In this document: positions 37,224-59,096 of the stretch, piece after piece | Layout of the letters: the number at the start of each line of letters is the position of its first letter | How positions within the stretch are numbered: the stretch's first letter is position 1 | Source: Shinella lacus | Lineage (GTDB): Bacteria > Pseudomonadota > Alphaproteobacteria > Rhizobiales > Rhizobiaceae | DNA length: 64,000 bases | NCBI RefSeq assembly: GCF_010994755.1 | Contig: NZ_WHSB02000004.1 | Span: forward strand, 248,001-312,000 | Reading direction: 5' to 3' | Position numbers and translations under genes: made by a program | The notes under the pieces: model-generated | The model's database searches: none | What the model was told of the DNA's origin: nothing | Seen by the model: only the letters and a program-made list of their open reading frames with translations

Positions 37224-37224
37224 C

Positions 37225-37240
37225 GGTCCGAAATCGGACC
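37225..37240. promoter_or_regulatory. Late-promoter palindrome, copy 1 (lysis block)
   Basis: GGTCCGA-AA-TCGGACC, one of three copies. The centre is at 37232.5. A -10-like TAGCAT lies at 37262-37267, which would place the palindrome near -41.5 relative to the start of transcription, the position of a class II activator. It stands in front of the endolysin gene. Confidence 0.7.
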
Positions 37241-37318
37241 ATTCGACCCACGCCACCCCCATAGCATTGTGCCCCCACGACAGCCGCCGTCGCCGGCTGT
37301 CCCGACCTGGGGGCTTTC

Positions 37319-38050
37319 ATGAACTTCGACGAATGGCTGATCGCACGTCTGCGCGTGCACGGCGCTTATGGCGGCGCAATGGATGGCGTGCCCGGCCGGG
37401 AAATGTACCGCGCCCTTGAGCGGTTCCAGGCGAGCGAACATCTGGACATCACGGGTGTGGCCGATCGGGCCACCGTCAATGCGCTCCGCAAAGCACCGAA
37501 TACCAAAGCCAGCGGCCTCACCGTCTATGAGAAAGCGCCGGAGTTGCCGGCTGAACCGGTCTGGATGCGCGAAGCCCGTCGTCTAATCGGCGTGCGCGAA
37601 GTCGTCGGCAAGGGCAGTAATCCGACGATCATGGACTGGGCAAAGCGCCTCGGCGGTTGGGTCGCCAGCTTCTTCAAAGATGACGACATCGCCTGGTGCG
37701 GGCTGTTCATGGCGCATGTGCTGGGCCTGACGCTGCCACGCGAACCTTTGCCCGCAAATCCGCTCGGCGCCCTTCAGTACAACAAACTCGGCCGCCAGCT
37801 CGCCGCGCCTGCCCTCGGGGCGATCATGACATTCACTCGCGATGGCGGCGGCCATGTCGGAATCTATGTCGGCGAGGACAAGACCCACTTCCATATCCTT
37901 GGCGGCAACCAGGGCAACAGCGTGCGGATCTCCCGCATCGAGAAGGATCGGCTTTCCGATACCCGCTGGCCGAGAACCGGCGAGCCCGAGCGTCCCGGCC
38001 GCGTCTACTTGACGGCCGCAGGCGTTCCCGCATCTTCGAATGAGCGCTGA
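37319..38050 (+). CDS. Endolysin with peptidoglycan-binding and CHAP-like amidase domains
   Basis: This 243-residue lysis enzyme has an N-terminal peptidoglycan-binding domain (about 10-60: VPGREMYRALERFQASEHLD). The C-terminal part resembles the TIGR02594/CHAP family, with the catalytic Cys in DDIAWCGLFMAHVLG and His in GGGHVGIYVGEDKTH. It has no signal peptide, so it depends on the holin next door. It is the first gene of the first late operon. Confidence 0.85.
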   Translation: MNFDEWLIARLRVHGAYGGAMDGVPGREMYRALERFQASEHLDITGVADRATVNALRKAPNTKASGLTVYEKAPELPAEPVWMREARRLIGVREVVGKGSNPTIMDWAKRLGGWVASFFKDDDIAWCGLFMAHVLGLTLPREPLPANPLGALQYNKLGRQLAAPALGAIMTFTRDGGGHVGIYVGEDKTHFHILGGNQGNSVRISRIEKDRLSDTRWPRTGEPERPGRVYLTAAGVPASSNER

Positions 38051-38053
38051 ACG

Positions 38054-38308
38054 ATGATCCCGGAAAAGCCCTCCTATTCGACCTCCAAGCGGCATCTGCT
38101 TTACTCGTCGGTTCTGGCCTGGACCGTCATCCTGCTCTGCGCCATCGGCGCGTTGCTGGGCAGGTCCGAGGCCGTAGCCTTCGGCACGATTGCCGTCCCG
38201 TCCATGGTAGCGTTGATCGCCGCCATGCTCGGCATCCATCGCATCTCCGGCTCCATGGATTTTCGCGCCTCCAACTTGCCTCGCGATCAGCCGGGAGGTG
38301 AATCGTGA
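38054..38308 (+). CDS. Holin-like membrane protein
   Basis: This 84-residue protein has two membrane helices (about 14-36 and 42-62: LYSSVLAWTVILLCAIGALL and VAFGTIAVPSMVALIAAMLG), the size and layout of a class II holin. Its position between endolysin and spanin genes supports the call. Confidence 0.75.
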   Translation: MIPEKPSYSTSKRHLLYSSVLAWTVILLCAIGALLGRSEAVAFGTIAVPSMVALIAAMLGIHRISGSMDFRASNLPRDQPGGES

Positions 38309-38670
38309 TTGATGGGATGTTTCGTCAAGCAGCGCTTCCCGTCCTCGCCGGGTTAGCGCTGCTCTGTTTCGGCCTGCTCGTCTTATGGCTTATCCTGGTC
38401 AAGTTCGATGACATGATCGGGCGGGCGGCAAAAGCGGCCACCGAAAGCCGGGACGCCCATTGGTCGGCGCAGATTGAGCGCGCGAATGCGGACGCAAACC
38501 GCCAGATTGCCAACCAGGCGAAGGCGGCATTGGCCATCGAGACGGAAGCGAACGCGCGTGTGCGTGCCGTCGAGGAACAGCTCACCACCATGGAGATTGC
38601 GAATGCGGCCTTGCCTTTCGGCGATGCTTGCGGCCTCGGCCGTGATCGCGTCCGCCTGCTCCCGAACTGA
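38305..38670 (+). CDS. Inner-membrane spanin, Rz-like
   Basis: This 121-residue protein has one N-terminal membrane helix (LPVLAGLALLCFGLLVLWLI) and a long periplasmic coiled coil (ATESRDAHWSAQIERANADA, then RQIANQAKAALAIE), as in i-spanins that fuse the two membranes at lysis. The outer-membrane partner starts inside its 3' end in another frame. Confidence 0.8.
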   Translation: MIDGMFRQAALPVLAGLALLCFGLLVLWLILVKFDDMIGRAAKAATESRDAHWSAQIERANADANRQIANQAKAALAIETEANARVRAVEEQLTTMEIANAALPFGDACGLGRDRVRLLPN

Positions 38671-38884
38671 ACCCGTGCCGCTCGTGCGTGTCGAACAGCG
38701 CCCCGTCATGCTGCCCGAGGTTGCCCGTCAGCCCTGCGCCGATCCCCGCGAACTTCCCGACCGCGATCTTTCCTCGCGGGAGGTTGCGACCAACTGGGGC
38801 GCCGATCGGGCGGCCCTGACGACCTGTGAAACTAGGCGGGCGGCTGCGGTCGCGGCCGTCGCTGCCGTTGAAGGGAATCCATGA
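38603..38884 (+). CDS. Outer-membrane spanin lipoprotein, Rz1-like
   Basis: This 93-residue lipoprotein has the signal MRPCLSAMLAASAVIASAC, lipobox ASAC, then a Pro-containing periplasmic part (EPVPLVRVEQRPVMLPEVAR). It overlaps the Rz-like gene by 68 bases in a different frame, the classical nested Rz/Rz1 layout. Confidence 0.82.
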   Translation: MRPCLSAMLAASAVIASACSRTEPVPLVRVEQRPVMLPEVARQPCADPRELPDRDLSSREVATNWGADRAALTTCETRRAAAVAAVAAVEGNP

Positions 38885-39189
38885 TGGACGTCTCTCCCCT
38901 GAAGGACTGGCTAGGCCTGATCGCACTGCTGATCTCGGTCGGCTCGTCTGTCGTGCTCTTCCTCAAATCCGACGCGAAGAGGGCCGCCGTGACGATCTCG
39001 GACCACGATAAGCGCATCCAGCGCCTGGAAGATGAGATGCGGCACATGCCCGACAAGGAGACGGTGCACAAGCTCCAGCTCGATTTGACCGAGATGAAGG
39101 GGCAGATGTCGACCATGGTGAAATCGTCGGAGGCCACGGAGCGCGCGACCAGGCGCGTCGAGGACTTCCTTATGAGCAAAGCAGCCTGA
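38881..39189 (+). CDS. DUF2730 family phage protein (Mu gp25-like position)
   Basis: This 102-residue protein has an N-terminal membrane helix (WLGLIALLISVGSSVVLFLK) and a coiled coil (HDKRIQRLEDEMRHMPDKET). It matches DUF2730. Function unknown; it is usually found between lysis and terminase genes in Mu-like phages. ATG at 38881 or 38884. Confidence 0.8.
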   Translation: MMDVSPLKDWLGLIALLISVGSSVVLFLKSDAKRAAVTISDHDKRIQRLEDEMRHMPDKETVHKLQLDLTEMKGQMSTMVKSSEATERATRRVEDFLMSKAA

Positions 39190-39199
39190 GGGGCGCGAA

Positions 39200-39511
39200 A
39201 TGCTGACAGAAGACTACGCGACTTGGGTAGATCAGAACATCAGGCTGATCATCTTGAAGGACTTGGCCGACCCGAAATCTGGCGGCACCACCAACACGTT
39301 CCTCATCCAGTTGAGCCTTGAGCGGTTCTCCTACCGCAAGAGCCGGGATTACATCCGCAACCAGCTGCTCTGGCTTGAGAGCGAGGTAGGCGCGGTGCGC
39401 ACCCGTACGGAGGGCACCGAAACTTCGGCGGAAATCACCCGCCGTGGCCGTGACCATGTCGAGCGGCGCACGGTGCTTGCCGGCGTTCAGGCACCCGGCG
39501 ATGCGGAGTAA
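39200..39511 (+). CDS. Mu gp26-like protein (VpaChn25_0724 family)
   Basis: This 103-residue protein is a predicted winged helix: DYATWVDQNIRLIILKDLAD, then RKSRDYIRNQLLWLESEVGA and ITRRGRDHVERR. It is the gene preceding the terminase small subunit in Mu-like phages. Molecular role unknown. Confidence 0.82.
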   Translation: MLTEDYATWVDQNIRLIILKDLADPKSGGTTNTFLIQLSLERFSYRKSRDYIRNQLLWLESEVGAVRTRTEGTETSAEITRRGRDHVERRTVLAGVQAPGDAE

Positions 39512-39517
39512 TCCGCC

Positions 39518-40105
39518 ATGACGCCGCACACGAGACCCCGGCCATCCGCCATCGATCAGTTGCCCGAGGAATGCGAAGCCATTGTTGCCTGGGCGGCGCA
39601 AGAGCTTGCCAACACCCCGAAAAGCCAGACGGAAATCTATGCCGAATTCCGCATGAAGCTGATTGCCCTGCAGGGCGAGCTCGGCCTTGCCTTCGACATC
39701 CCGCATTTCTCGTCCTTCAACCGGCATGCCCTGCGCCTGGCGAAGGTGACGCATCGGCTTCAGCGTAGCCAGATGATCGCCGACGCCGTGGTCGCGCGTA
39801 CTGATGGCGAAGACGCCGACAAGCTGACGCAGGCTTCCACCCGGCTCCTGAAGACCATCATTTTCGAGATGATGGAGAACGCGGCCGACGACGGATTCGT
39901 GCCGAAGGAAGCGCACCAGGCCGCCGCCGCGCTCTATCGCCTTTCCATGGCGGAGAATGTCTCGACGCAGCGCCGGCAGAAGCTCCAGGCGGAAATTGCC
40001 AGCCAGGCGCGGGAGGCGGTCGAAACCGTCGCCAAGGCGAAGGGGCTTTCCGACGACACCGCGCAGGAAATCCTTTCCAAGATCCTCGGGGTTGAAAAGG
40101 CATGA
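39518..40105 (+). CDS. Terminase small-subunit-like protein, DUF3486 (Mu gp27)
   Basis: This 195-residue protein has the DUF3486 pattern: RPSAIDQLPEECEAIVAWAA, then the FSSFNRHALRLAKVTHRLQR helix. In Mu-like phages this protein works with the large terminase in recognising phage DNA next to the end for head filling. It overlaps the large-subunit gene by four bases. Confidence 0.87.
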   Translation: MTPHTRPRPSAIDQLPEECEAIVAWAAQELANTPKSQTEIYAEFRMKLIALQGELGLAFDIPHFSSFNRHALRLAKVTHRLQRSQMIADAVVARTDGEDADKLTQASTRLLKTIIFEMMENAADDGFVPKEAHQAAAALYRLSMAENVSTQRRQKLQAEIASQAREAVETVAKAKGLSDDTAQEILSKILGVEKA

Positions 40106-41730
40106 CCGTCGCCATCACGCCGGAGCAGTGGGCGGAAGCTCGCCGCCAGGCGACCGACGTCATTCCTGAGATCATCGAGAAATTCGGCCTGCCCAAGGCG
40201 CTGCTCGGCTATCAAAGCCGGACGATCGCGCTTCTGGAGACCGCCGCCTGCCGTGTGCTTTTCATCGAGAAGTCGCGGCGCATCGGCGAGACCTGGGCGC
40301 TCGCCGCCTATGCCGTGCTGCGCGCAGCGCGCGCCAAAAAGGCCGGCGGTAAGGACGCACTTTATATCTCCTATTCGCAGGAGATGACCCGCGAGTTCAT
40401 CGACGCGTGCGCCATGTGGGCCAAGGCTTATTCCTTTGCGGCCTCGGAAGTCGATGAATTCCTGTTCAAGGATGAGACCGCCGAGGGCAATCAGTCTATC
40501 CAGGCGTTCCGCATCAAGTTCGCGAGCGGCTTTGAAGTCGTCGGCCTCTCATCTGCACCGCGATCACTTCGCGGTAAGGATGGCCTCCTGATCATCGACG
40601 AAGCGGCGTTTGTCGATAATCTGAAGGAACTGCTGAAAGCCGGCCTTGCGTTCCTCACCTGGGGCGGCCAGGTCGTTGTCTGCTCGACCCACAACGGCGC
40701 CGAGAACGAATTCAACGTCAAGATTCAGGATATTCTTGGCGGCCGCCTCAAATACAAACATCTGCGCATCGACCTCGACGATGCGCTGAATGATGGCCTC
40801 TATCAGCGCATCTGCCTCGTCAATGGCCTTGAATGGTCGCCCGAGGCGGAGGCAAAGTGGCGGCAGGAACTCATCGAATTTTACGACGAAGCTTCCGACG
40901 AGGAACTATACTGCGTGCCAAGCCAGGGCTCCGGCGCCTGGCTGACCACGCCGCTCATCGAAGCCCGGATGACGTCGGACGCACCCGTGCTCACGCTCGA
41001 CCTGCCCGATAACTATCTGCTTCTCTCCAAGCTGGAGCAGGCTGCCCTTATGGCGCCCTTCATGGAGCAGCTGCGCGAGGCGCTGAGAGCTCTGGACCCG
41101 GAGAAGCAGCACGCTTTCGGCTTCGACTTTGCCCGCGTCGGCGACCTCACCGTCGGCACCCTCCTGTCGATCGACAAGGTGCTCAAGCGCGAAACCGCGC
41201 TGACGGTCGAACTGCGCCGCGTACCAGGTGACGAGCAGAAACTCATCACCAGGACGATTCTGAAAGCTGCACCTCGCTTGATCGGCGCCGCCTTCGACGC
41301 CACCGGCATGGGCTGGACGGTCGCGGAAGACATGGGCCGCATCTTCGGCTTCCGCGAGAGCGAAGAAGATGCCGGCATGATCTGGTCCATCAAATTCAGC
41401 ATGGACTGGTATCGCATCAACATGCCGCCGCTGAAGGTCGCCTTCGAAGATGCGGCGATCGCCATTTCGAAGAACGTCAACCACCTACTCGATCTTCGCC
41501 TCGTCAAGATGATCGCCGGTGTTCCGCGCGTCCCTGACCTTCGATCGGGTGAGACCGGCAAGAAGCGGCATGGCGACTTCGCCATTGCGCTGGCGCTCGC
41601 TCACTTCGCGAGCCGCTTCATGGGGCGGGAATATGCCTACACCCCGATATCCGACATCGACGACGACGACTGGTCCGAACGCGATCGGAGCGACGACGCT
41701 TCGCCGTTCGGGCGCGGAGGACTTTGGTAA
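40102..41730 (+). CDS. Terminase large subunit (Mu gp28-like)
   Basis: This 542-residue DNA-packaging motor has an atypical Walker A region in FIEKSRRIGETWALAAYAVL, Walker B LLIIDEAAFVDNL and a motif-III-like VVCSTHNGAENEF. The nuclease half begins near GFDFARVGDLTVGTL with catalytic Asp residues. Length and motifs fit Mu-type headful packaging terminases. Its stop overlaps the portal start (TAATG). Confidence 0.93.
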   Translation: MTVAITPEQWAEARRQATDVIPEIIEKFGLPKALLGYQSRTIALLETAACRVLFIEKSRRIGETWALAAYAVLRAARAKKAGGKDALYISYSQEMTREFIDACAMWAKAYSFAASEVDEFLFKDETAEGNQSIQAFRIKFASGFEVVGLSSAPRSLRGKDGLLIIDEAAFVDNLKELLKAGLAFLTWGGQVVVCSTHNGAENEFNVKIQDILGGRLKYKHLRIDLDDALNDGLYQRICLVNGLEWSPEAEAKWRQELIEFYDEASDEELYCVPSQGSGAWLTTPLIEARMTSDAPVLTLDLPDNYLLLSKLEQAALMAPFMEQLREALRALDPEKQHAFGFDFARVGDLTVGTLLSIDKVLKRETALTVELRRVPGDEQKLITRTILKAAPRLIGAAFDATGMGWTVAEDMGRIFGFRESEEDAGMIWSIKFSMDWYRINMPPLKVAFEDAAIAISKNVNHLLDLRLVKMIAGVPRVPDLRSGETGKKRHGDFAIALALAHFASRFMGREYAYTPISDIDDDDWSERDRSDDASPFGRGGLW

Positions 41731-43304
41731 TGACCCTGCTCGACCGTTTTGGAAATCCGCTCAAGGCTCCGCAAAAACAGGTGCTCCTCGAGGAGCAGAG
41801 CGCGCCCACGCTGACGGGCGTTCGCTCGCTCTGGAATGAGAATGTCGCGTCCGGCCTCACGCCTTCCCGGTTAGCCCGCATCCTCAAGGAAAGTGGCGAT
41901 CCCGGTGGCGATTTCCGCGACTATCTCACCCTTGCCGAGGAGATGGAGGAACGCGAACCGCAGTACCGGATGGCGCTCGCCCAGCGCAAACTCGCGATTC
42001 GAAACCTCGCACCTGTCGTCGAGGCAGCCAGCAAGAGCGCGAAGGACAAGGAAATTTCCGCCAGCGTCCAGCGCATGCTCGACACGACAGCCTTCCGTAG
42101 CACGATGATGCACCTTGCCGATGGCATCGCCAAGGGCTTTGCGGTGGCCGAAAACCTCTGGCGGATGGACGGCTCGTTCTGGTCGTTGCCCCGCATCGTC
42201 CAGCGCGACCAGCGGCATTTCCAGTTCGACCGCATCACCGGCCGAGAATTGCGGCTGCGCCATGACGGCGTCTTCGAGGGCGTCGAACTTCCCCAGGCAA
42301 AGTATGTAGTGCACATCCCGACGCTCTTGTCCGGTCTGCCGATCCGCCAGGGCCTCGCGCGCACGGCCTGCTGGATATTCATGCTGAAGAGCTTCAGCCT
42401 GAAGGACTGGATGTCGTTTCTTGAAATCTACGGCATGCCATTCCGTATCGGCAAATACGGGCCGAACGCCTCGAAGGAAGACAAGCGTGCGCTCCTGAAG
42501 GCCGTGGCGAACGTCGCGGCTGACGGCGGCTGCATCATCCCGGAAAGCATGCTGCTGGAATTCATCGAGACCAAGGCGGGCAATGCCGGGGAAAATGCCT
42601 TCAAGGGCATGGCCGAATATCTCGATGACCAGTTCGCAAAGCTGATCCTCGGTCAGACGATGACGTCGGATGATGGCTCATCTGAAGCCCAGGCGAACGT
42701 ACATGACGATATTCGCTTGCTGATTCTGCGCGCTGACGGCGACGACATGGCGGCGACGGTGCAGCGCGACGTGGTCGATCCGTTTGTCGCTTTCAACCAC
42801 GGCGCTCATGTGGACGCGCCTCAGGTCACGTTCCCGGTGCCTGACCCGGAAGACATCAAACTGCTCATGGACGCGACGAAAACCTTCGTCGAAATGGGCG
42901 GCACGGTCCCGGCCGGGCCGGTGCGTGAGAAGCTCGGGTGGCGCGATCCGGTCGATGGCGAGGAGGTGCTCGGCGGAACGAAGAAGGAAGAGCCGCCGAA
43001 GGAGCCCACGCCGAAGGATGCGGCCGAGGCCATGCGCCGTCTGTTCGACAAGACGGCATCGCCCATGTCGATCGCCGCCGACGATATAACCGAAGGTTTC
43101 GCCGAGGAAATGACGGCGGAATGGGAAGAGCAGCTCTCTCCGCTGATGGACGCCATCCGAAAAGCGACGGCGGCGGCCACTGACTTTCCCTCCCTGCTTA
43201 AGGCGCTGGAAAACGTAACTACCGGAGATGTCGGCCTGGGAGGTCGCCTGGCGGCGGCAACCTTTGTTGCCCGCATTATGGGCGGCGGCCGCGAAGATGG
43301 CTGA
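41730..43304 (+). CDS. Portal protein, DUF935 (Mu gp29)
   Basis: This 524-residue portal subunit forms the ring through which DNA enters the head. Family stretches include MEEREPQYRMALAQRKLAIR, DGIAKGFAVAENLW and YGMPFRIGKYGPNASKEDKR. The ATG at 41730 overlaps the terminase stop. The C-terminus contains a Pro/Lys/Glu linker and a helical tail. Confidence 0.93.
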   Translation: MTLLDRFGNPLKAPQKQVLLEEQSAPTLTGVRSLWNENVASGLTPSRLARILKESGDPGGDFRDYLTLAEEMEEREPQYRMALAQRKLAIRNLAPVVEAASKSAKDKEISASVQRMLDTTAFRSTMMHLADGIAKGFAVAENLWRMDGSFWSLPRIVQRDQRHFQFDRITGRELRLRHDGVFEGVELPQAKYVVHIPTLLSGLPIRQGLARTACWIFMLKSFSLKDWMSFLEIYGMPFRIGKYGPNASKEDKRALLKAVANVAADGGCIIPESMLLEFIETKAGNAGENAFKGMAEYLDDQFAKLILGQTMTSDDGSSEAQANVHDDIRLLILRADGDDMAATVQRDVVDPFVAFNHGAHVDAPQVTFPVPDPEDIKLLMDATKTFVEMGGTVPAGPVREKLGWRDPVDGEEVLGGTKKEEPPKEPTPKDAAEAMRRLFDKTASPMSIAADDITEGFAEEMTAEWEEQLSPLMDAIRKATAAATDFPSLLKALENVTTGDVGLGGRLAAATFVARIMGGGREDG

Positions 43305-44478
43305 TAACGTTCGCCGCCGGAACCCGCCCCCGGAGGCCATCGCACACGTTGAGAGCAAAGGCTATCGGGTTTCGTTTCACCACCTCGACACCTGGGCCGA
43401 AGAGCACGCCCATGAGTTCACCGTGGCCAAGGCCATGGAAATGGACGTCCTCCGCACGGTACGACAGGAAATAGAGCGCGCTATACGCGACGGCATCCCC
43501 TTTGAGCAGTTTCGCCAGGAGCTGACACCGCGCCTGGTCGCGCTCGGCTGGTGGGGCAAGAGGCCGATGGTAGACCCCGCGACGGGCGAACAGAAGATCG
43601 TGCAGCTCGGAAGCCCGCGCCGCCTTCAAACGATCTATTGGGCCAACACCAGGTCGGCCTATGCCGCCGGTCAGTGGGAGCGTGCCCAGCGCACCAAGCG
43701 CGGCTTGCCCTATTTCGTGTACGAGCTCGGCCCGAGCGAACAGCACCGCCCGCATCATGAGGCCATCGCCAATCGCCCGACCGTGCTTCCTGTCGACGAT
43801 CCATTCTGGGATACGCACTATCCTCCCAACGGGTGGGGCTGCAAATGCCGGCTCCGCCAGATCACACAGTTCGAAGCCAACGAGATCGGTGCGCCTGAAG
43901 GAGCACCCGAGGTCAAGCTGAAGGAGTTCCGCAACAAGCGCACCGGCGAAGTCTCCATGATCCCCGAGGGCATCGACCCCGGCTGGCATACCAATCCGGG
44001 CAAGGCCAGGGCGAAGACCCTCGTTAGCGCGTTGTCGCAGCGCCTAGAGCAAGCACCGATCGCGGAAGCGAAGAAGGTCATCGCAGATTTCTGGCAGAGC
44101 CGGGCGCCGGAAGCCTACATGCGCATGGCCGAGCAGGTCGACCTTCCTGTCGCCATCGCTCCGGATCTCGCGGCCGAGCTGGGCGCGACCGGCACGCTGA
44201 TCTCGGTGAGCAACCGCGCCATCGGCGTGAAGACCGAAAAGCACGCCATGACGGAGCTGGGACGCTTCGCCGAGTTTCAGGCGATGGTCGACGAGGACGA
44301 GAAGGTCAAGCGGCCGGACGGCAGCCGGCAGTTCTGGAAGCAACTCGACGGGACTTTCTTTGTCGGCGCCGTGCGCAAGATGGCCTCGGGCTTCCTGCGC
44401 CTGGTCACATTCCATAGCGCGTCTCCCGATCGGCTCGACCAGGTGAGACGTGTTGAACAACGATTGAAGGGGGAGTGA
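43297..44478 (+). CDS. Head morphogenesis protein (Mu gpF/gp30, SPP1 gp7-like)
   Basis: This 393-residue minor head protein has family features: HAHEFTVAKAMEMDVLRTVR, TIYWANTRSAYAAGQWERAQ, then HRPHHEAIANRPTVLPVDDP and the Cys-containing PPNGWGCKCRLRQIT. It starts inside the portal gene's end (8-base overlap). It helps start head assembly, by analogy with SPP1 gp7. The C-terminal 100 residues (KRPDGSRQFWKQLDGTFF) look like an added domain. Confidence 0.9.
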   Translation: MADNVRRRNPPPEAIAHVESKGYRVSFHHLDTWAEEHAHEFTVAKAMEMDVLRTVRQEIERAIRDGIPFEQFRQELTPRLVALGWWGKRPMVDPATGEQKIVQLGSPRRLQTIYWANTRSAYAAGQWERAQRTKRGLPYFVYELGPSEQHRPHHEAIANRPTVLPVDDPFWDTHYPPNGWGCKCRLRQITQFEANEIGAPEGAPEVKLKEFRNKRTGEVSMIPEGIDPGWHTNPGKARAKTLVSALSQRLEQAPIAEAKKVIADFWQSRAPEAYMRMAEQVDLPVAIAPDLAAELGATGTLISVSNRAIGVKTEKHAMTELGRFAEFQAMVDEDEKVKRPDGSRQFWKQLDGTFFVGAVRKMASGFLRLVTFHSASPDRLDQVRRVEQRLKGE

Positions 44479-44802
44479 TGCGCGCGGAGGACGTGATCCC
44501 TCCCAGCCCTCAGACGGACAGCACACTAATCGGCGCGCACCATCAACATACGCCTTCCCGCAGGCATTTTCAACTTTCAGTTCCGTCATCGTCAGGGCGG
44601 CGTGGGACGCGCGGAGCGACTCCGGCCGGGCGACGACAGCGACCAGGGGGCAATCGCGCGCCCACGGCCTTTAAAAGTGCTTTAAATCTGACAGTGTTGT
44701 TGCGTGGTCGGCCCCTCTTGCGCCTGCCGACCGTGATGGCTAGGTTTCCTTCAGCCGGTTCGCGCAACGCCCACCGGTCTTTCCCCCAAGATCTCGATTG
44801 AC
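44479..44802 (+). other. Interval between head gene and protease operon, possible decayed gene
   Basis: A 107-codon frame (44478-44801) begins at an ATG overlapping the preceding stop. Only its first dozen codons have normal composition; the rest is Arg/Ser/Pro rich and not protein-like. TTTAAAAGTGCTTTAAA (around 44671-44687) is an AT-rich direct repeat. Best read as leader DNA or a broken gene. In Mu a tail/head assembly gene (gpG) sits here; in this phage gpG lies further on, so loss or movement is plausible. Confidence 0.4.
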
Positions 44803-44818
44803 GGTCCGATTTCGGACC
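44803..44818. promoter_or_regulatory. Late-promoter palindrome, copy 2 (head block)
   Basis: GGTCCGA-TT-TCGGACC, the same 7-2-7 palindrome as upstream of the endolysin gene, placed 38 bases before the protease start. A T-rich TTGTTTATT at 44840-44848 may include the -10 region. Confidence 0.65.
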
Positions 44819-44855
44819 CGGCAAAAAGCCCCTGCGATGTTGTTTATTCGCCGGC

Positions 44856-45824
44856 ATGCAAAACGCACTCGCCGCCATTCTCTGCTCGCAGCTCCTGCCC
44901 GACAGCGCCACCGCGCCGGACTGGATTCTGCTCGTCCCCGCTGGTGACATCGTCGCCCGCGACGGCCGCGCCTTTTCCAACCGCACGCCGGACGCCGTCG
45001 TCACCGCGTTTCGCGCCGATCGCAAGGACATGCCCGTCGACTACGAGCACGCCACGCACCTGCGCGCACCGGAAGGCCTGTCCGCGCCGGCCGTTGCCTG
45101 GGTGAAGGATATCGAGGTCCGCGAGGGCGCCCTGTGGGGCAAGGTCGACTGGAACCGCGATGGCCGTGAGGCCGTCGAGGGCAAAGCCTATCGCTACATT
45201 TCCCCCGTCGTGCATCCGGACGCCAGCCGAAACGTCGTGCGCATCTCCTCTGTCGCGCTGACCAACGACCCCGCCCTCTTTCTGCCGGCGCTGTTGCGCC
45301 GCGACCCAACCGAAAAGGACCAGGACATGAAAACCATCGCGCTTGCGCTCGGCCTGAAGGAAGACGCCACCGAGACGGAAATCCTCTCCAAGATCAATGC
45401 TGACAAGACCAGCGTCGAGCTGCTCACCCGCAAGGCGGAGAAGCCGGACCCGGAACTCTTCGTCGCCCGCAAGGATCATGACGCTGTTGTCGAGCTGTGC
45501 TCGCAGCAGAAGACCGAGATCGAGACCCTGAAGAACGCCGATACCGATCGCGCCGTCACCTCGGCCGTCGAAGGCGCCATTGCTGAAGGCAAGGTCATTC
45601 CGGCCGTGAAGGAAAGCGAGCTGGAGCTGTGCCGCGCGATCGGCGTCACGAAGTACCAGGAGCGCCTCTCCCGCCTGTCGCCGATCGTCAAGCCCGGCGA
45701 AGACGCGACGACGCGCGCCGCTGAACTCGGCAAGGGCGCGGCCTTCTCCCGCGAGGAGGTCGAAGTGCTGCGCCGCATGGGCATCTCCGAAGAGGACGCC
45801 AAGAAAACCCGCGACGGCGCCTGA
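44856..45824 (+). CDS. Prohead protease/scaffold precursor (Mu gpI-like)
   Basis: This 322-residue protein's first 150 residues form the protease: PDWILLVPAGDIVARDGRAF, then MPVDYEHATHLRAPEG with a candidate catalytic His, and VVRISSVALTNDPAL with a Ser. The C-terminal half is a charged helical scaffold. As in Mu gpI/gpZ, an internal start at 45327 with its own ribosome site would give the scaffold alone. The protease cuts head proteins during maturation. Confidence 0.88.
   Translation: MQNALAAILCSQLLPDSATAPDWILLVPAGDIVARDGRAFSNRTPDAVVTAFRADRKDMPVDYEHATHLRAPEGLSAPAVAWVKDIEVREGALWGKVDWNRDGREAVEGKAYRYISPVVHPDASRNVVRISSVALTNDPALFLPALLRRDPTEKDQDMKTIALALGLKEDATETEILSKINADKTSVELLTRKAEKPDPELFVARKDHDAVVELCSQQKTEIETLKNADTDRAVTSAVEGAIAEGKVIPAVKESELELCRAIGVTKYQERLSRLSPIVKPGEDATTRAAELGKGAAFSREEVEVLRRMGISEEDAKKTRDGA
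45327..45824 (+). CDS. Nested scaffold protein (Mu gpZ-like), internal start within the protease gene
   Basis: An in-frame ATG at codon 158 of the protease gene is preceded by AAAAGGA at eight bases, better than the site of many genes here. The product (165 residues, MKTIALALGLKEDATETEIL) is the helical scaffold. Mu uses the same arrangement. Use of this start is inferred. Confidence 0.55.
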   Translation: MKTIALALGLKEDATETEILSKINADKTSVELLTRKAEKPDPELFVARKDHDAVVELCSQQKTEIETLKNADTDRAVTSAVEGAIAEGKVIPAVKESELELCRAIGVTKYQERLSRLSPIVKPGEDATTRAAELGKGAAFSREEVEVLRRMGISEEDAKKTRDGA

Positions 45825-45887
45825 GCGCCGCCGAACCTGACCCCGCAACGGCGCCGGTAGCTGCGCCACCTCGAAAGGACTTTCCGC

Positions 45888-46292: not shown

Positions 46293-46330
46293 TCGGCCGG
46301 AACCTTCATCACCAACACGAGAACCGACCG

Positions 46331-47230: not shown

Positions 47231-47256
47231 TCCGCGCGTCGTGAGCGACGTGCATG

Positions 47257-47317: not shown

Positions 47318-47341
47318 CGAGACCCGCAAAGGAGAAACGAC

Positions 47342-48161: not shown

Positions 48162-48162
48162 G

Positions 48163-49722: not shown

Positions 49723-49732
49723 AGGAAGCACC

Positions 49733-49927: not shown

Positions 49928-49928
49928 C

Positions 49929-52377: not shown

Positions 52378-52381
52378 CCTC

Positions 52382-54730
52382 ATGTATCAACGCGTCACAA
52401 TCAGCCAGGACGAACACTTCCGCCAGGAAGACGTCGATCGCCTGGGCACGTTCCCGCAGGCCGGCGACGAGATGTTGACCCAGGACTGGCTCGGCACGGC
52501 CCGCTATCGCGGGTTCTCCACCGTCAAGGACGGGCAGAACGCCGTCGTCGTCGCCACCGGCGCTGCCTATGTGAACTTCCGCCAGTATGCGCTCGAAGCG
52601 CCCGTCACAGTCAGCCTGGTCGCGGAAAAGCCGCTGATCGCGGGCCAGAAGCGCGTCGTGGTGCTCGCAGGACAGGGCATCGACGATCGCCCGGCGCCGG
52701 CCGTCTCTCGTGATAAGACGGTCGAGGTGCCGGATGGCGCTGGTGGAACGACCACGCAGGACATCGTCACCACCGTTTCGCCCTACGTTCGCAACGTCGT
52801 CGAGATCGCAAAGCTTGCCTCCGGTCTGTCCACCCAGGAGCTTGATCCGCCGATCCCCGCAAACGTCGTGCCGTTCTGCCGCATCGTCCTCGATGTCAAC
52901 GGCATCGTCGGCGATCCGGAAATGCTCGACGATCACCGCATCCGGTCGGTCAACGATCTCGACGCGATTATTTCTCAGCAGGGCGCCATCCTCGACGTGG
53001 TGCGCGGCGAGGTGCAGGCGCTGCGCAACGACCTGGTCGGCATCTCCGGCTTCCTGAAGTCCACCGTCAGCTACGCGACCCTCGACCAGATCATCTACGA
53101 CGTCGCGACGCTGAAGGACGTCAACGATATCGGCGACACGGGCGCACCCTATGCGCTCGATCGGCTTGCCAATGACAGCGAGGTCAACACGGCGCATCCC
53201 GACTTCAAGGGTCGTGTCGACGAAGGCTTGCAGGCGCCTTATGCCGCAGAAGACCGCGTTCCGCTCTCACTGTTCAACGCGAACGACATCCGCCTGATGC
53301 ACCAGGACAAGGGCGTGCTCTTCCCCGCCTACGATCCCGAGATCGGCCATATCGTGCATTCGACGGGCCAGACCGCGCCGCTCGGCGGGACCGTCACACA
53401 GACCATGTCGCTTGTCCGCATGCACATGACCCGCGTCCGCATCCGCTATGGCGGCTACTACCATTATATGAACCCGCTGCTCTGGCATCCGCTGCGCTAC
53501 CAGACGGACATTGTGTATCGCGTCTGGGCGCAGCAGGCAGAGGCGTTCGCCTATCCCTACGGCTACTACATCAACCGCTATCCCTACTGGAACCGCTACT
53601 GGCGCTATGGCGTCATCGTCGATCGCTACGTCTACAGCTATGACGTCTGGCGCAAGACGAACCTGACCATCCAGGGCGTCATCAAGGCGCAGACCTGGTT
53701 GCAGTCGCAGGAACGTTATATCCCGGCGATCCGCCTCGGCCTGCTCAATTGGGAGAACGGCGCGGAAATCACAGTAGCACTCTGCAAGCTGCGGCCAGAC
53801 GGCTCTCCGGACCCGGAAAAGACGCTCCAGACCGTCACGCTGAATTCGTCCAGCTTTGTTCGCTATGTCCGCGGCAAGGATGCGACGATGACGCGCTTTG
53901 CCTTCCCGGTTCCGGCGCATGTTGGGCGCGAGGGCGTCGGTTACGTCACCTCTGTTACCGGCAACGTCACGGTTGCAATGGCAACCGGTGACCAGTTCCT
54001 TGGTGGCAACTACTTCGAGAGCACGGACGGCAACTTCTTCGTCGGTTCGATCACGCAGGACATGGCTCACGCCGTAGAATACTGTAAGTTCCGCGCCACG
54101 ACGCTGGATGTTCGCTTGAACAACCTGTCGCTTTCGGGTGGCGTGCAAAACGTCGACATCAACTGCCCGGCGGTAGTGCCGGACAACACGGGTGTTGCCT
54201 GGCAGGCCAATTCGGGCGGGGCATGGAAGACGATGGCGAACCTGCCGTCGGACGAAACGGCCCCGGATCCTGATCCCACCGACGTCTTTGGCGTTGGCAC
54301 CACAGCAACCTACGACTTCCGGGCTTTCCTGACCGGGAACGAGTGGGTGATGCCGGTGCTTGATCTCACGGGCTCGGAACGCACGGTGTTTCGTGCAGAT
54401 GACGACGTTCATTACATCAGCAAGGCCCGTACCGTGCCGTCTGGCACGACATGGGTGAAACTTTATGTCACCGCGACGATCCCCAAATATGACGCGGCCC
54501 GCCATACGCTGAGCGCCAAGATTCACCACGGCACGGCGCTGACGACGGTCGTCAACCCTGTTGGCGCACCGGTTATCAAACCGATCCCCGAAAACAACGC
54601 CGTCGAGGCGACATGGGAATTCACGGTCGATCCGTCAAATGACGTCTACCAGACGCATGTGCTGGCCTCGACCAACAATATCGCGTTCCCGATCGCCATC
54701 GCGAAAGTGTTCTCGAAGGTCACGCAGTAA
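52382..54730 (+). CDS. Large tail tip/fibre-anchoring protein (DUF4815-like)
   Basis: This 782-residue protein begins MYQRVTISQDEHFRQEDVDR and has the DUF4815-like N-terminus with GTFPQAGDEMLTQDWLGTAR. Residues 353-424 are extraordinarily aromatic: 17 Tyr and 5 Trp in 73 residues. The last 250 residues are beta-rich. By position between I and the fibre it probably links baseplate and receptor-binding fibre, the role of P2 gpH's N-terminal part. Confidence 0.72.
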   Translation: MYQRVTISQDEHFRQEDVDRLGTFPQAGDEMLTQDWLGTARYRGFSTVKDGQNAVVVATGAAYVNFRQYALEAPVTVSLVAEKPLIAGQKRVVVLAGQGIDDRPAPAVSRDKTVEVPDGAGGTTTQDIVTTVSPYVRNVVEIAKLASGLSTQELDPPIPANVVPFCRIVLDVNGIVGDPEMLDDHRIRSVNDLDAIISQQGAILDVVRGEVQALRNDLVGISGFLKSTVSYATLDQIIYDVATLKDVNDIGDTGAPYALDRLANDSEVNTAHPDFKGRVDEGLQAPYAAEDRVPLSLFNANDIRLMHQDKGVLFPAYDPEIGHIVHSTGQTAPLGGTVTQTMSLVRMHMTRVRIRYGGYYHYMNPLLWHPLRYQTDIVYRVWAQQAEAFAYPYGYYINRYPYWNRYWRYGVIVDRYVYSYDVWRKTNLTIQGVIKAQTWLQSQERYIPAIRLGLLNWENGAEITVALCKLRPDGSPDPEKTLQTVTLNSSSFVRYVRGKDATMTRFAFPVPAHVGREGVGYVTSVTGNVTVAMATGDQFLGGNYFESTDGNFFVGSITQDMAHAVEYCKFRATTLDVRLNNLSLSGGVQNVDINCPAVVPDNTGVAWQANSGGAWKTMANLPSDETAPDPDPTDVFGVGTTATYDFRAFLTGNEWVMPVLDLTGSERTVFRADDDVHYISKARTVPSGTTWVKLYVTATIPKYDAARHTLSAKIHHGTALTTVVNPVGAPVIKPIPENNAVEATWEFTVDPSNDVYQTHVLASTNNIAFPIAIAKVFSKVTQ

Positions 54731-56737
54731 ATGGCAACCAACCCTGCCTCCCTCTTCGACCTTCCGGGCGACCGGCTGCTGGACAACCTGAAGCGGGCCT
54801 TGAGCCTGCTTCACGAGCGCGGTGAAGCAGCGGCCGAGGCCATCTCGGATCTCCAGGCGGGCCAGGTCGCCGCCGTCGATGATCTCGTCCAGCAGATCAC
54901 GACGAACTTTTCCGAGCTGTTCACGGACGGTTCGGTTGTCGTGCAGGCCCTTCAGGAGGGCCACTACACCTCGGCCGATATCGATGGTCCGGTGATCTTC
55001 GACGTCCAGAACGGGCTTTCCCTCTCGCTCGACGTCTCCGGGCCGATCGGCTTTTCGCCAGCTCCGATCGTCATGATCGGCCATAATGCGAGCGCGGCCG
55101 ATTTCGCGGCTGCCCGTGTCGTCTCCTGGAACAAGGAGACCAGCACGCTCGTGGTCAACATCCTCACCGTGAACGGCAGTGAGGGACCGCACAATGACTG
55201 CTACGTCGAGGTCGGACTGCTGTCGGCTCTTGCCGAGGTCTCGATGCTGGAGCAGGTGCAGGCGCTTCTCGGCCTGACACAAGACGCGCGGGATGCGGCG
55301 GCGGCTCACGTTGCCACGGCGGCGGGCCACGTTTCGAGCGCGGCATCGGCACAGTCCGCAGCCGAGACGGCGCGGTTCAGTGCGCAGGGTTTTGCCTCGG
55401 CCGCTGCCGGTTACCGCGATACCGCTCTCGGCTATCGCGATCAGGCGGCGACGTCTGCCGCGCTGGCTGCGTCTTCGGCCGGTCAGATCGTCAACGTGCT
55501 CGATCGCGTGGATGTGTTGCCGACGCTCAATCTCGATCTTACCGACATCAATGGAGCGCCGTTCAAGGGCAACCTGACACGCGCGACGGGTGGTGGGTAT
55601 CGGCAGAATTCCAAGGGCGTCTTGGTTCCGACCGCTGCCAATGCGCCGGTGATCGACTACGATGTAGATGGAAAGCCGAAGGGGGCGGGGTTCTTTAGTG
55701 CTTACACGAACCTGCTGCTTTACTCGGAGCAGTTCGATAATGCGGCCTGGTTCAAGGCTAACCTGACTGTCTCAGCCGATGCGACGATTGCTCCAGACGG
55801 AAACCTGACGATGGATGCTCTGGTTGAGGATGCAGCAACGTCCCAGCACAGCATTTCGAGGGTGGCGACCAAGAGCGCCAGCGCTCTGCCTTACACTCTC
55901 TCTCTTTTTGTGAAGGCCGGCAAGGGCCGCCAGATTGTTCTGAACCTCTTCGGGGCTGGGTATGCCGGTGGCGTCCAGATGCGCTTCAACCCGGAGGCGG
56001 GTGCAATTACCACCGCAGCTTTCGCTTATGGAACCGGCTTTGCCTCGGGTTCGGGCTCATTCGCGAAGGTTAGCGATGGGGTCTATCTAGTATGGGTCAC
56101 TGCAACATCTGACACTACAACGTCGATCGGCGGGCAGTTTGGACTGCATAATGGGACGGCGCTGTCGTACACCGGCGACGGCACGTCCGGGGTCAACGCA
56201 TGGGGCGCCCAACTCACCCAAACCGCCTTCCCCGGGCCCTACGTCCCGACCACCTCGGCGGCGGTCGTGCGCAATGCGGATAGTATGGTCATCAGCGGGA
56301 CGGATTTTACGGATTTCTTTAATCCGATCGAGGGGACGATTTTCGCGGAATTCAGGGCCCCCGCGTATGGCGCATCGCAACTAGCATGGACGCTGTCCGA
56401 TGGGACCTACCCTAATGCCTTATTTGGCGCTTTGAATACAGACGGCAGAATTTATACTCTGGGCGGCGGGGGCTGGAATTTGAGCCTGCCCCCTGGGCCA
56501 ACAATCGACGCGGCGACAGCGAAGATGGCGACAACCTACGCCACGAGCGCGGTGCGTATGTCTGTGAACGGGGCCGTGGCTGTAGCTGATACATCGGTTA
56601 CAGTACCAGCGTTGTCACGCCTCTCAATAGGCGGCGATTGGCTTGGTACTGGAAACCATCTTCGTGGGTTTATCCGCCGCATCATCTATTGGCCCAAGGC
56701 CCTGAGCGCCACTGACCTACAGAGGATCACGGCATGA
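54731..56737 (+). CDS. Tail fibre with Ala-rich shaft and LamG-like C-terminal domain
   Basis: This 668-residue protein has an N-terminal anchoring region, then Ala/Ser-rich helical repeats (about 190-258: AAAHVATAAGHVSSAASAQS; ARFSAQGFASAAAGYRD) typical of trimeric fibre shafts. The beta-sandwich C-terminus (YTNLLLYSEQFDNAAWFKAN; GFIRRIIYWPKALSATDLQR) is a concanavalin/LamG-like glycan-binding fold. The DNA of the second half is more AT-rich than the rest of the phage, which suggests receptor-binding domain exchange. Confidence 0.85.
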   Translation: MATNPASLFDLPGDRLLDNLKRALSLLHERGEAAAEAISDLQAGQVAAVDDLVQQITTNFSELFTDGSVVVQALQEGHYTSADIDGPVIFDVQNGLSLSLDVSGPIGFSPAPIVMIGHNASAADFAAARVVSWNKETSTLVVNILTVNGSEGPHNDCYVEVGLLSALAEVSMLEQVQALLGLTQDARDAAAAHVATAAGHVSSAASAQSAAETARFSAQGFASAAAGYRDTALGYRDQAATSAALAASSAGQIVNVLDRVDVLPTLNLDLTDINGAPFKGNLTRATGGGYRQNSKGVLVPTAANAPVIDYDVDGKPKGAGFFSAYTNLLLYSEQFDNAAWFKANLTVSADATIAPDGNLTMDALVEDAATSQHSISRVATKSASALPYTLSLFVKAGKGRQIVLNLFGAGYAGGVQMRFNPEAGAITTAAFAYGTGFASGSGSFAKVSDGVYLVWVTATSDTTTSIGGQFGLHNGTALSYTGDGTSGVNAWGAQLTQTAFPGPYVPTTSAAVVRNADSMVISGTDFTDFFNPIEGTIFAEFRAPAYGASQLAWTLSDGTYPNALFGALNTDGRIYTLGGGGWNLSLPPGPTIDAATAKMATTYATSAVRMSVNGAVAVADTSVTVPALSRLSIGGDWLGTGNHLRGFIRRIIYWPKALSATDLQRITA

Positions 56738-57147
56738 TCGACCATATCTTGATTTATGCCGATGACGCCGCTCGCGATGCGGCCTGGCCCGCGCCGGAAG
56801 ACAACCCGCCAAGCTGGACGGACGGCGAGCGATCCATCATGCCGACGCGCATCGTGCATGCGCGGGCCAGCTATGACGCCGAAGGCAATGAGACCTCGCC
56901 AGAGGTGACGGCGCCCGGCTCATATCTGGTGATCCGCACGCCGAGCCGTGACGCGGAGATCGAGGCGATGGCCGAATGCATCATCGCCACCGATGCCGGC
57001 CTGATGGCGGACGGTCAGCCCTACGTCCTCAAATGCTCGCTCCAGCCGGAGACCGTCCTCGGCCAGGTCGATCCGGTCTGGGCGGGCTCGCCCTATGCCA
57101 TCCCGGTCGGCTCGCCGGCCTCTGCTCTCGATGACTGGAGGGTCTGA
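56734..57147 (+). CDS. Small fibre-region protein, possibly tail-fibre accessory
   Basis: This 137-residue protein starts MIDHILIYADDAARDAAWPA, overlapping the fibre stop by four bases. It has mixed composition, with LVIRTPSRDAEIEAMAECII and SALDDWRV at the end. No family is named; co-encoding with the fibre suggests an assembly chaperone or minor tip protein. Confidence 0.65.
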   Translation: MIDHILIYADDAARDAAWPAPEDNPPSWTDGERSIMPTRIVHARASYDAEGNETSPEVTAPGSYLVIRTPSRDAEIEAMAECIIATDAGLMADGQPYVLKCSLQPETVLGQVDPVWAGSPYAIPVGSPASALDDWRV

Positions 57148-57569
57148 TGCCGACACCTGTTGCCAATAAGAACCGCGCCGGCCTGATGGGGCCGGAGCAC
57201 GTTAAGCAGCTCGACGGCAAAGCAGACCAGACGGCGCTCGACGCTGCCGCCACCACGGCCGCCAATGCGACCGCTGCCGTCAAGGCCGACCTCGCGACGG
57301 TCATCACCGCAAACCGTACGGCCATCGTCGGTGACAAGCTGGTTGCCAACACGGCAAGCGGTGCGATCGTGGTGACACTTCCCGTAACGCCGGCCGCTGG
57401 CACGCCCGTCAGGGTCTACCGAGATGGCGCCAACACCGTCACGATCGCTCGCAACGGCTCGACCATCGAGGGCGCCGCCGAAGACCTCGTCCTCGACGAG
57501 GACAAGCGCGGCGTCCGGATGACGTACCTGTTCGGGACGTGGAAAGCTTTTCCAGAGGTGCTTGCATGA
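57147..57569 (+). CDS. Fibre-region protein with Ala-rich stalk and beta-roll end
   Basis: This 140-residue protein starts MPTPVANKNRAGLMGPEHVK. An Ala/Thr-rich helix (DAAATTAANATAAVKADLAT) is followed by strands (TVTIARNGSTIEGAAEDLVL) like those of phage tail-tip adhesins. It overlaps the next gene by four bases. Probably a minor fibre or adhesin base. Confidence 0.65.
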   Translation: MPTPVANKNRAGLMGPEHVKQLDGKADQTALDAAATTAANATAAVKADLATVITANRTAIVGDKLVANTASGAIVVTLPVTPAAGTPVRVYRDGANTVTIARNGSTIEGAAEDLVLDEDKRGVRMTYLFGTWKAFPEVLA

Positions 57570-58582
57570 ATTACTCCGCTCTTTTTGGCTCAACCGCAGC
57601 ACCATCCGCTCAAATTGTTATCGCGCTGAAGGCCAGAACCTGGACAGCGCCTCGCGACTGCACGGTTAAAGCTTCCGCCTTCGGCGCGTCCGGAAGTGGG
57701 GGTGCTCGCCGTGGGGCCGGCGGTAACGCGACCGGCGGCGGCTCCGGCGCGCGATGCACAAAGATCATCAAGCTGAAGGCCGGTGATACTCTTACCCTCG
57801 CTCCAGGGGCTGGTGGCGCTGGTGTGTCCACCACCAACGGGACCGTCCAAGGCAATGCCGGGGGCAACTCGACGATCACGGGTCCGAACGGGCTGAACAT
57901 GATCGCAGGAGGGGGTGGACCCGGCCAGGCGAATGCGGCTGGCAACGTTGCTCTCCCTGGCGGAGCAGGAGGCATCGCGACGGGTGGTGATGAGAACGTA
58001 TCGGGATGCAGAGGCGGAAATGCTGCGGCCGGCAATTCGTCGACAGATGTCCGCGCGACTGGTGGCGGCTCGGTTCCTCTTCTCGACAGCAATGGACGTG
58101 GCGGCGATATCCTCGGCAATCATAACCAGATCGCGACCGGCGGTGGCGGTGTCGGCGGTCACGGTGGTGACGCGAATGCTGGCTTGCTTGCGACGGGCGG
58201 AGGCGGCTCCCACGGCGACGGTGAGACCAGGACATCGGGGGCCGGAGATGGCGCTCCGGGCACCACGATCTCGCCAAGCGTCTCGCTGGCCTCATGGCTC
58301 CTGGCATCCGGTTCCGGATCCGCTGGGAAAAATACAACGGCAGACCCGGCCGGTTTAGGAGGCGGGGGTGGCGGCGCATATCAGAACAGCACGAGCGCCG
58401 CGTTCTCCGGAATTCCGGGCTTCTTGGGCGGGGGTGGCGGCGCGCAAGGACAGTCCGGCTCGGCCACAGCGAGAGGCAACAGCGAAGCGCTCTTTGGTGC
58501 AACCGGCGGCGCGTGTTGCGCGAGCGGGACCGCGGCCACAGAAAAGGGCGGCGACGGCTTCTTCATCCTGGAGGTCTATTGA
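57566..58582 (+). CDS. Glycine-rich tail adhesin
   Basis: This 338-residue protein is dominated by Gly, Asn, Ser and Ala, with many GGGG-type runs (LGGGGGGAYQNST; FLGGGGGAQGQSG), probably a polyglycine-helix bundle as in T-even tip adhesins. The N-terminus (TWTAPRDCTVKASAFGASGS) resembles a tail-tip docking strand. It may define host range. Confidence 0.75.
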   Translation: MNYSALFGSTAAPSAQIVIALKARTWTAPRDCTVKASAFGASGSGGARRGAGGNATGGGSGARCTKIIKLKAGDTLTLAPGAGGAGVSTTNGTVQGNAGGNSTITGPNGLNMIAGGGGPGQANAAGNVALPGGAGGIATGGDENVSGCRGGNAAAGNSSTDVRATGGGSVPLLDSNGRGGDILGNHNQIATGGGGVGGHGGDANAGLLATGGGGSHGDGETRTSGAGDGAPGTTISPSVSLASWLLASGSGSAGKNTTADPAGLGGGGGGAYQNSTSAAFSGIPGFLGGGGGAQGQSGSATARGNSEALFGATGGACCASGTAATEKGGDGFFILEVY

Positions 58583-59073
58583 TGCGGTACAAAATCTTCG
58601 ACATCGAAGGAAACCACGTCAACTCGATCGTCGCCGACGAAGCGTTCGTCGAGCAGCATTTTCCCGGCAGATACGAGCTTTTGCCGTCGCCACCACCGCC
58701 TGCGCCTTTGCCGCCGACCTCGGCCGACGTTGATGCAGAACGCGATCGCCGCATCTCAGCCGGTTTCGTGTTCGGGGGCATCCTCTACCAGTCGCGCCCA
58801 GAGGACCGCGAAAACATCACCGGCGCATCTCTCGCAGCACTCGCCGCCATGATGAACGGCGCCGTTGTAGGGAACCTTCGCTGGCATGGTGGCGACAGCG
58901 ACTTCATGTGGATCGCAGCCGATAACTCGGTCTATCCGATGGACGCCCAGACCGTCTTTACGTTCGGTCAGACGGCCATGGCGCACAAGCAGGGCTTGAT
59001 TTTCGCGGCCCGTGCCATCAAGGATGAAGAACCGATCCCGGCTGATTATACCGACGACGGTTACTGGCCCTAG
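58582..59073 (+). CDS. DUF4376-like tail protein
   Basis: This 163-residue protein begins MRYKIFDIEGNHVNSIVADE. A Pro-rich linker leads to ADVDAERDRRISAGFVFGGI, the hallmark of DUF4376 domains, which are found on fibre or fibre-accessory proteins. It is the last gene of the fibre block. Confidence 0.78.
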   Translation: MRYKIFDIEGNHVNSIVADEAFVEQHFPGRYELLPSPPPPAPLPPTSADVDAERDRRISAGFVFGGILYQSRPEDRENITGASLAALAAMMNGAVVGNLRWHGGDSDFMWIAADNSVYPMDAQTVFTFGQTAMAHKQGLIFAARAIKDEEPIPADYTDDGYWP

Positions 59074-59080
59074 TGCCGAA

Positions 59081-59096
59081 GGTCCGAATTCGGACC
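59081..59096. promoter_or_regulatory. Late-promoter palindrome, copy 3 (sheath block)
   Basis: GGTCCGA-AT-TCGGACC, fully symmetric, 67 bases before the tail sheath start. Same 7-2-7 palindrome as at the other two late operons. A -10 hexamer is not obvious here. Confidence 0.65.

Follow-up and report, generated by a model that had tools for sequence, protein, structure and literature searches.

Three palindromes at the heads of late gene blocks

The analysed stretch of DNA (the window) comprises 64,000 nucleotides of a Shinella lacus contig (NZ_WHSB02000004.1, positions 248,001 to 312,000) and contains a Mu-like prophage. The subject of this work is the 16-base-pair (bp) palindrome GGTCCGANNTCGGACC, present three times in the prophage, and the gene of a 135-amino-acid Mor-like activator (36816–37223, + strand), here called mor. 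The palindromes, or dyads, have no strand assigned. Dyad 1 (GGTCCGAAATCGGACC, 37225–37240) is separated from the mor stop codon (37221–37223) by a single base (37224). It precedes a lysozyme/endolysin-like gene (37319–38050, +), which matches phrog_1259 and endolysin families and heads the lysis-terminase-portal block. Dyad 2 (GGTCCGATTTCGGACC, 44803–44818) lies 37 bases before the ATG of the head maturation protease gene (44856–45824, +; phrog_328, E 7e-76), which thus starts 38 bases past the dyad end. Dyad 3 (GGTCCGAATTCGGACC, 59081–59096) is located 66 bases before the tail sheath gene (59163–60395, +; phrog_23, E 5.4e-66), the first gene of the tail block. The 4-bp centres are AAAT, ATTT and AATT, respectively. 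The three palindromes are very probably the binding sites of the only Mor/C-type activator of the phage, through which three late promoters would be driven without a separate C protein.

The three copies are exact matches, and none of 100 dinucleotide shuffles of the window contained any. The original prediction, which had placed three palindromes before the lysis, head protease and sheath genes and had the first begin at the second base after mor, is therefore confirmed, including the identity of the neighbouring genes (phrog_836/lysozyme-like, phrog_328 and phrog_23). When up to three mismatches were allowed, eight matches were found in the window against 6.3 expected, so that only the perfect copies stand out; the additional matches were rejected as chance level. 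A scan of the host genome (7,043,451 bases, 7.04 Mb) detected exactly three copies, all in the prophage, and none of the reversed control pattern. The host genome is thus not full of copies, and relatives carry the dyad at the same positions, as described below. Among 100 genomes of other relatives, four contained one copy each. The pattern GGTCCGWWWWCGGACC occurred once in seven of 393 other sampled genomes of the family and twice in none, and its reversed control occurred in 13. In the viral collection, GGTCCGAWWTCGGACC was found in 17 stretches on 14 contigs, six of which are the window prophage or Mu-like relatives; the stretches examined on the other eight show no similarity to the window prophage proteins. 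Copies outside the Mu-like phages were taken as chance or unrelated occurrences: the 18 loci, searched as stretches of about 3 kb where they came from whole genomes, gave no tblastn match to 41 window prophage proteins. A wider 20 kb region around the copy in G022 (L035) showed one weak small-terminase match (32% identity, E 5.6e-5). The possibility that the palindromes are repressor operators was considered unlikely, because no copy of GGTCCGANNTCGGACC lies anywhere other than at the three block heads. A different arrangement was seen in G109 (L058, IMGVR_UViG_3300047160_001822, 54.7 kb), where seven copies of a GTCCGATATCGGAC-like palindrome with zero to two mismatches are spread across the record. 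These are possibly repressor sites; the G109 stretch examined had no match to the window prophage proteins.

A single Mor/C-type activator gene

The product of mor matches the late transcriptional activator profile phrog_836 with an E value of 4.4e-17, which places it among the Mor/C-type activators, and it was aligned with other proteins of this type (18 in total). In its predicted structure, helices at residues 99–106 and 110–120 form a C-terminal helix-turn-helix (HTH) after an N-terminal domain, the architecture expected of the Mor/C type. The HTH covers approximately residues 96–120 (37101–37175), with ARSTVTDQRR in the recognition helix region. Several Pfam HTH families match this region, all below their own cut-offs. 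A profile chain also leads to Mu: the window-type alignment A2 matched an alignment of the RcapMu, RR1-B, POA1180 and KS10 proteins with 99.8% probability, and the latter matched Mu Mor and C with 94.3%. The direct match of A2 to Mu reached only 59.6%.

A profile search detected one Mor/C-type gene in the host genome. One phrog_836 match was found in nine of the ten records searched, several of the viral records being incomplete; mor is missing from the tenth, the fragment G101. The phrog_836 profile search revealed no separate C gene. This profile also matches both Mu Mor and Mu C, and therefore a Mu-like C should have been detected. No relative emerged when the genome collection was scanned with the Mor protein or its alignment.

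Dyads in related phages

Near copies were removed before counting (G464, close to G463; G102 and G107, close to G101), as was the uncultivated virus genome (UViG) record of the window itself. Mu was represented by the record AF083977. The GGTCCG-type dyad occurs in four distinct relatives at seven sites, all at the same three positions as in the window, and the matched proteins of these phages are 23–82% identical to those of the window. In G105, the dyad follows mor, precedes the protease and, with one mismatch in the centre, precedes the sheath gene. The fragment G101 carries it before the protease and before the sheath gene. G106 and G462 each have one perfect dyad after mor. In G462 (L071, 2299–2332) this dyad is adjoined by a partial half-site copy, GGACCTTAATCGGACC at 2317, perhaps a second binding unit. 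The Mor proteins of G105, G106 and G462 are 64–68% identical to that of the window.

Other relatives have dyads of their own. Those of G018, G002, G016 and G463 were found by taking the DNA after mor and seeking its recurrence within each phage. G018 contains GCTGACATTTGTCAGC, with the half-site GCTGAC, at mor, protease and sheath, and G002 has the same three sites. In G016, GCCCGCCATGGCGGGC (half-site GCCCGC) is found at mor and protease and also before a third gene. G463 carries AGGGCGAAACCGCCCT (AGGGCG) in a perfect form after mor and in an imperfect form before the protease, and G010 has a dyad before the protease and a third gene. In the cultured phages RcapMu, RR1-B and POA1180, dyads likewise recur behind mor and ahead of the protease, each phage having its own half-site: CCGGAC at two sites in RcapMu, CCTGAC in odd-length dyads at three block heads in POA1180, and CCGGAAC in odd-length dyads at four block heads in RR1-B. 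The RcapMu dyads (L101, 13949 and 22370) are longer by some additional C/G pairs, have T-runs behind them and may combine an activator site with a terminator. RR1-B (L102) has further dyads before the tape measure gene (26074) and a baseplate gene (31111), with an ATG 37 bases past the second, and thus seems to have four late promoters.

A gene-blind scan of 20 sequences for repeated perfect 6-4-6 palindromes recovered the expected dyad in eight (window, G105, G101, G018, G002, G016, G010 and RcapMu). It also gave pairs elsewhere, for example in the window (45286 and 45815), G464, G002, B3 and POA1180. Shuffled sequences, three for number and three for size per sequence, gave some repeats as well, the largest being of four copies (one G016 shuffle) and three copies (one G011 shuffle). 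Since shuffles give repeats and real sequences give pairs elsewhere, the palindrome cluster count alone is weak evidence, and it is the gene position that carries the argument.

Promoter geometry and the start of the protease mRNA

The DNA downstream of the dyads was compared with the sigma-70 consensus TTGACA/TATAAT. The imperfect dyad of G011 belongs to a set of 26 sites. It was left out of the register set of 25 sites, as were the sites of G465 and G466, and the seven sites of POA1180 and RR1-B were kept apart due to their odd length. When the 25 sites were aligned by the dyad alone, three columns stood out clearly: T at +30 in 18 sites, A at +26 in 17 and A at +5 in 16 (next best column, p 0.0025). 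A TTGACA-17-TATAAT model reached a mean of 4.64 of 12 matches at one offset, compared with 3.24 at the next-best offset, 3.08 in the upstream control and 3.88 as the largest of 2000 random draws. The same offset was kept after thinning to 18 sites (4.5), and the nine thinned GGTCCG sites gave 5.44. These results point to a weak sigma-70-like −35/−10 pair at a fixed distance from the dyad, with the −10 hexamer 25–30 bases after it, a predicted +1 located 37 bases past the dyad end and the dyad centre at about −44.5. Over the 25 sites the layout is that of a Mor/C-dependent promoter, in which a −10 and a poor −35 accompany a 16-bp dyad near −43.5; for the thinned sites of the groups other than GGTCCG, the signal is not significant.

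In the window, this register places putative late promoter 1 at 37242–37270 (+), with a weak −35 TTCGAC (37242–37247), a −10 CATTGT (37265–37270) and +1 at about 37277. The original prediction had chosen TAGCAT (37262–37267, +) as the −10 at this copy, which would centre the dyad at −41.5. The family register moves the centre to about −44.5; TAGCAT is the better hexamer taken alone and may still serve, at site 1 only. Putative promoter 2 (44820–44848, +) would consist of GGCAAA (44820–44825) and TTTATT (44843–44848), with +1 at about 44855, one base before the ATG. Putative promoter 3 (59098–59126, +), the weakest of the three, would consist of TTCGTT (59098–59103) and CATGGA (59121–59126), with +1 at about 59133.

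The distance from the dyad to the protease gene was measured without use of the −10. Ten of the 12 phages have the protease ATG 37–39 bases past the dyad end (window, G105, G101, G018, G002, G016, G010, G463, G466 and, by a half-base convention, POA1180). G011, placed by its imperfect dyad, has the ATG at 37 and raises the count to 11 of 13. The exceptions are RR1-B, with an in-frame ATG at 39 and the annotated ATG at 57 behind GGAG, and RcapMu, with the start at 54. At random positions in nine of these phages, an ATG was found at a distance of 37–39 in 4.8% of cases and an ATG opening at least 100 codons in 1.7%. A Shine-Dalgarno-like string, defined by a loose pattern, precedes only one of the ten protease starts (G018), whereas the lysis and sheath starts, at 53–88 bases past the dyad end, have one in 14 of 17 cases; by this pattern none was detected at the window protease. 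In 11 of 13 phages the predicted +1 thus coincides with the protease ATG or adjoins it, and therefore the protease mRNA is probably leaderless. The start sites are themselves predictions, and the proteases of G018 and G002 might also start at a later ATG.

Two further repeats were noted between dyads 1 and 3 and the genes that they precede. A leader hairpin, GACAGCCG and CGGCTGTC with a spacer of seven bases (37279–37301, +), lies between promoter 1 and the lysis gene, and several other phages likewise have a leader hairpin in the interval from the post-mor dyad to the lysis gene. The inverted repeat GATTGCGGTGACAACCGCAATC (59125–59146, +) precedes the sheath gene. It has ACCGCAA/TTGCGGT in common with a 16-bp perfect inverted repeat (27831–27865) inside the ParB-like gene.

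Covariation of the half-site with phage proteins

The similarity of half-sites was compared with protein identity in up to 12 phages; G011, with its imperfect dyad, G465 and G466 were excluded. Half-site similarity follows the identity of the Mor recognition helix (r 0.74, p 4e-4, 12 phages). It does not follow TnpA (r −0.01, 11 phages), ParB (0.04, 10 phages) or the early regulator phrog_2345 (−0.07, seven phages), and the value for terL is 0.24 (10 phages). Phages with the same half-site have common recognition helices in the Mor/C-type alignment. The pairs are RSTVTD with GGTCCG, RSTVKD with AGGGCG, HERTIW with GCTGAC, HERSAY with CCTGAC, ES[SG]VDK with GCCCGC, and [ST]QR with CCGGAC or CGGAAC.

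A sharper case is the phage G011, which has no GGTCCG motif. Its identities to the window phage are 86% for TnpA, 87% for TnpB, 83% for ParB, 74% for the lysis gene and 86% for terL, and the other early genes are 51–97% identical or unmatched. Its Mor is 50% and its portal protein 37% identical. The blastn matches of G011 to the window cover 36827–37069 and 37309–41619 and are absent over 37070–37308, which contains the HTH half of mor together with site 1. This block would have arisen by exchange or by fast divergence, which are indistinguishable here. On balance, we lean slightly towards the view that the Mor-like family consists of diversified, mutually orthogonal activator-promoter pairs, in which the HTH half and the first site would change as a block, the protease and sheath sites would follow, and transcription would start on the protease ATG to give a leaderless head operon.

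Proposed model and alternative explanations

According to our model, the Mor-like protein, whose gene closes the early block, would bind each 16-bp dyad, probably as a dimer with one HTH per 6-bp half-site across the mostly A/T 4-bp centre. Bound at about −52 to −37, directly upstream of the poor −35, it would activate the host RNA polymerase at three late promoters, those of the lysis/terminase/portal, protease/head and sheath/tail blocks. At the protease promoter, transcription would start on or next to the ATG and yield a leaderless mRNA. Because no separate C gene was found, one Mor-like protein would perform the late step that C performs in Mu. What was computed here is the placement of the sites, their conservation, their covariation with the activator and the fixed −35/−10 register. 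The proposal of the original prediction that the Mor-like protein is the single late activator of these sites gains support from comparison, namely from the confinement of the sites to the prophage, the one Mor/C-type gene, the dyads of the relatives and the covariation.

A number of observations weigh against this model. The Pfam family Mor (PF08765), with which six of eight alignment members match at E values up to 1 (best 2.4e-6), does not match the window protein at E up to 1, and it gave no match passing its cut-off in six genomes or records. A Foldseek search with the Mor-like model (predicted local distance difference test score 76.7, predicted template modelling score 0.52) returned no significant fold match (best E 0.43), and the Mu Mor structure 1rr7 was not among the best 50 rows. 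The nine thinned sites outside the GGTCCG group have their maximum (3.67) at offset 30 instead of the fixed offset, at which the two RcapMu sites score 1 and 2 of 12, and with the seven POA1180 and RR1-B sites included the peak drops to 3.91. A clean copy after mor is missing in G010, and G466 (a weaker dyad pair), G465 (dyads only after mor) and G011 (11 of 16 bases common to its two copies) are not clean cases. No perfect 6-4-6 dyad recurs in KS10 or Mu, and the two palindrome pairs of B3 lie away from these block heads. The Mor N-terminal part tracks the half-site as well as the helix does (r 0.76, 12 phages), so the helix is not isolated. The head-module structural proteins portal (r 0.69) and gp30 (r 0.65; 12 phages each) also track the half-site, and therefore covariation alone does not single out Mor. 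Judged from these sequences, the covariation is one that excludes the early DNA-binding proteins tried and does not by itself isolate Mor.

The palindromes might instead close the operons before them, as intrinsic terminators or as hairpins at the 3′ end, and the repetition of the sequence would be incidental. The copies of the GGTCCG group do lie a few bases after a stop triplet and have stems of 6–7 G/C-rich pairs. Site 3, with its weak −10 and a T-run shortly downstream, resembles a terminator and was called terminator-like, a further point against the model. T-runs are also present at the two RcapMu sites and at the sheath sites of G101 and G002, and T-rich DNA follows three of the four RR1-B copies. 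In the Mu record, predicted terminators (9179–9200, inside the annotated Pm; 10383–10406; 17908–17953) stand beside Pm, Plys and PI. However, at least five T in the eight bases after the stem, as expected of an intrinsic terminator, were found at only five of 25 sites (POA1180 and RR1-B not counted), and sites 1 and 2 were not called terminators. The stem sequence does not covary but is the same in all copies of a phage and across the GGTCCG phages, and a promoter signature follows at a fixed downstream distance. A purely terminating role is thus quite improbable; some copies may serve as both activator site and terminator. In a second alternative, the Mor-like protein would bind the dyads and the late genes would also need a second, unrecognised activator, making the cascade more than one step. 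PHROG matches are missing for some window genes, such as those at 44475–44801 and 57539–58582, and profile searches can miss distant paralogues. Against this stand the single Mor/C-type gene in nine of ten records, found with a profile that also recognises Mor and C of Mu, and the one dyad type that serves all three blocks, which make a second activator unlikely. Finally, 16-bp palindromes resemble parS in form, and the ParB-like protein of the phage (27437–28300) could bind the dyads as partition sites, the more so as ParB-like genes are present in the window phage, RcapMu, RR1-B and POA1180. The ParB identity to the window nevertheless does not track the motif: it is 83% in G011, without the motif, and only 51% in G105 and 28% in G106, with it. 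In addition, parS sites would need no fixed −10 and ATG distances. A partition role is therefore extremely unlikely.

Comparison with Mu and other systems

If a single Mor/C-type activator binds the dyads, a little-described part of Mu-like phages becomes open to test, with predictions on which DNA each protein reads, on the starting points of late transcripts and on one leaderless head operon. The seven natural half-sites and their recognition helices are material from which HTH specificity may be read, and the dyad can be tested directly in a cultured phage, for instance RcapMu. A single activator as such had been annotated before; what appears new, within the literature searched, is the set of its sites, their code and the geometry of the start. 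No description of such dyads in these phages was found in a partial search conducted mostly at title and abstract level, and the dyads are absent from the record annotations examined for RcapMu, RR1-B, POA1180 and KS10.

The Mu Mor dimer binds a 16-bp element centred at −43.5 that replaces the −35 (PMC4390567). The window phage is similar in having a 16-bp dyad in place of the −35, a promoter directly after mor and a −10, with the centre predicted at about −44.5. Mu Pm has 5-bp repeats, a G/C-rich 6-bp spacer and one promoter feeding the middle operon that makes C; in contrast, the window phage has repeats of 6 bp around a centre of 4 bp, mostly A/T, and has three putative late promoters. The C-dependent late promoters of Mu (Plys, PI, PP and Pmom; PMC4461284) offer a second parallel, since the putative window promoters also lie just after the activator gene, like Plys, and just before the protease, like PI. 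In the Mu record AF083977, Plys is annotated just after C and PI just before protease I. Of the Mu late set (lys, I, P and mom), only the lys and protease positions are thus occupied. Unlike Mu, the window phage has no motif copy beyond the three, hence none at the P or mom positions, and its third copy precedes the sheath gene. Its protease gene starts at the predicted +1, unlike gene I of Mu, which is preceded by a ribosome site in the record. RcapMu, RR1-B and POA1180 differ from the window phage in their half-site sequences, and KS10 in the lack of a recurrent perfect dyad. Like the window phage, all four (RcapMu, RR1-B, KS10 and also POA1180, NC_070931) already have one late-activator gene each in their annotation, and the first two and POA1180 combine it with recurrent dyads after mor and before the protease.

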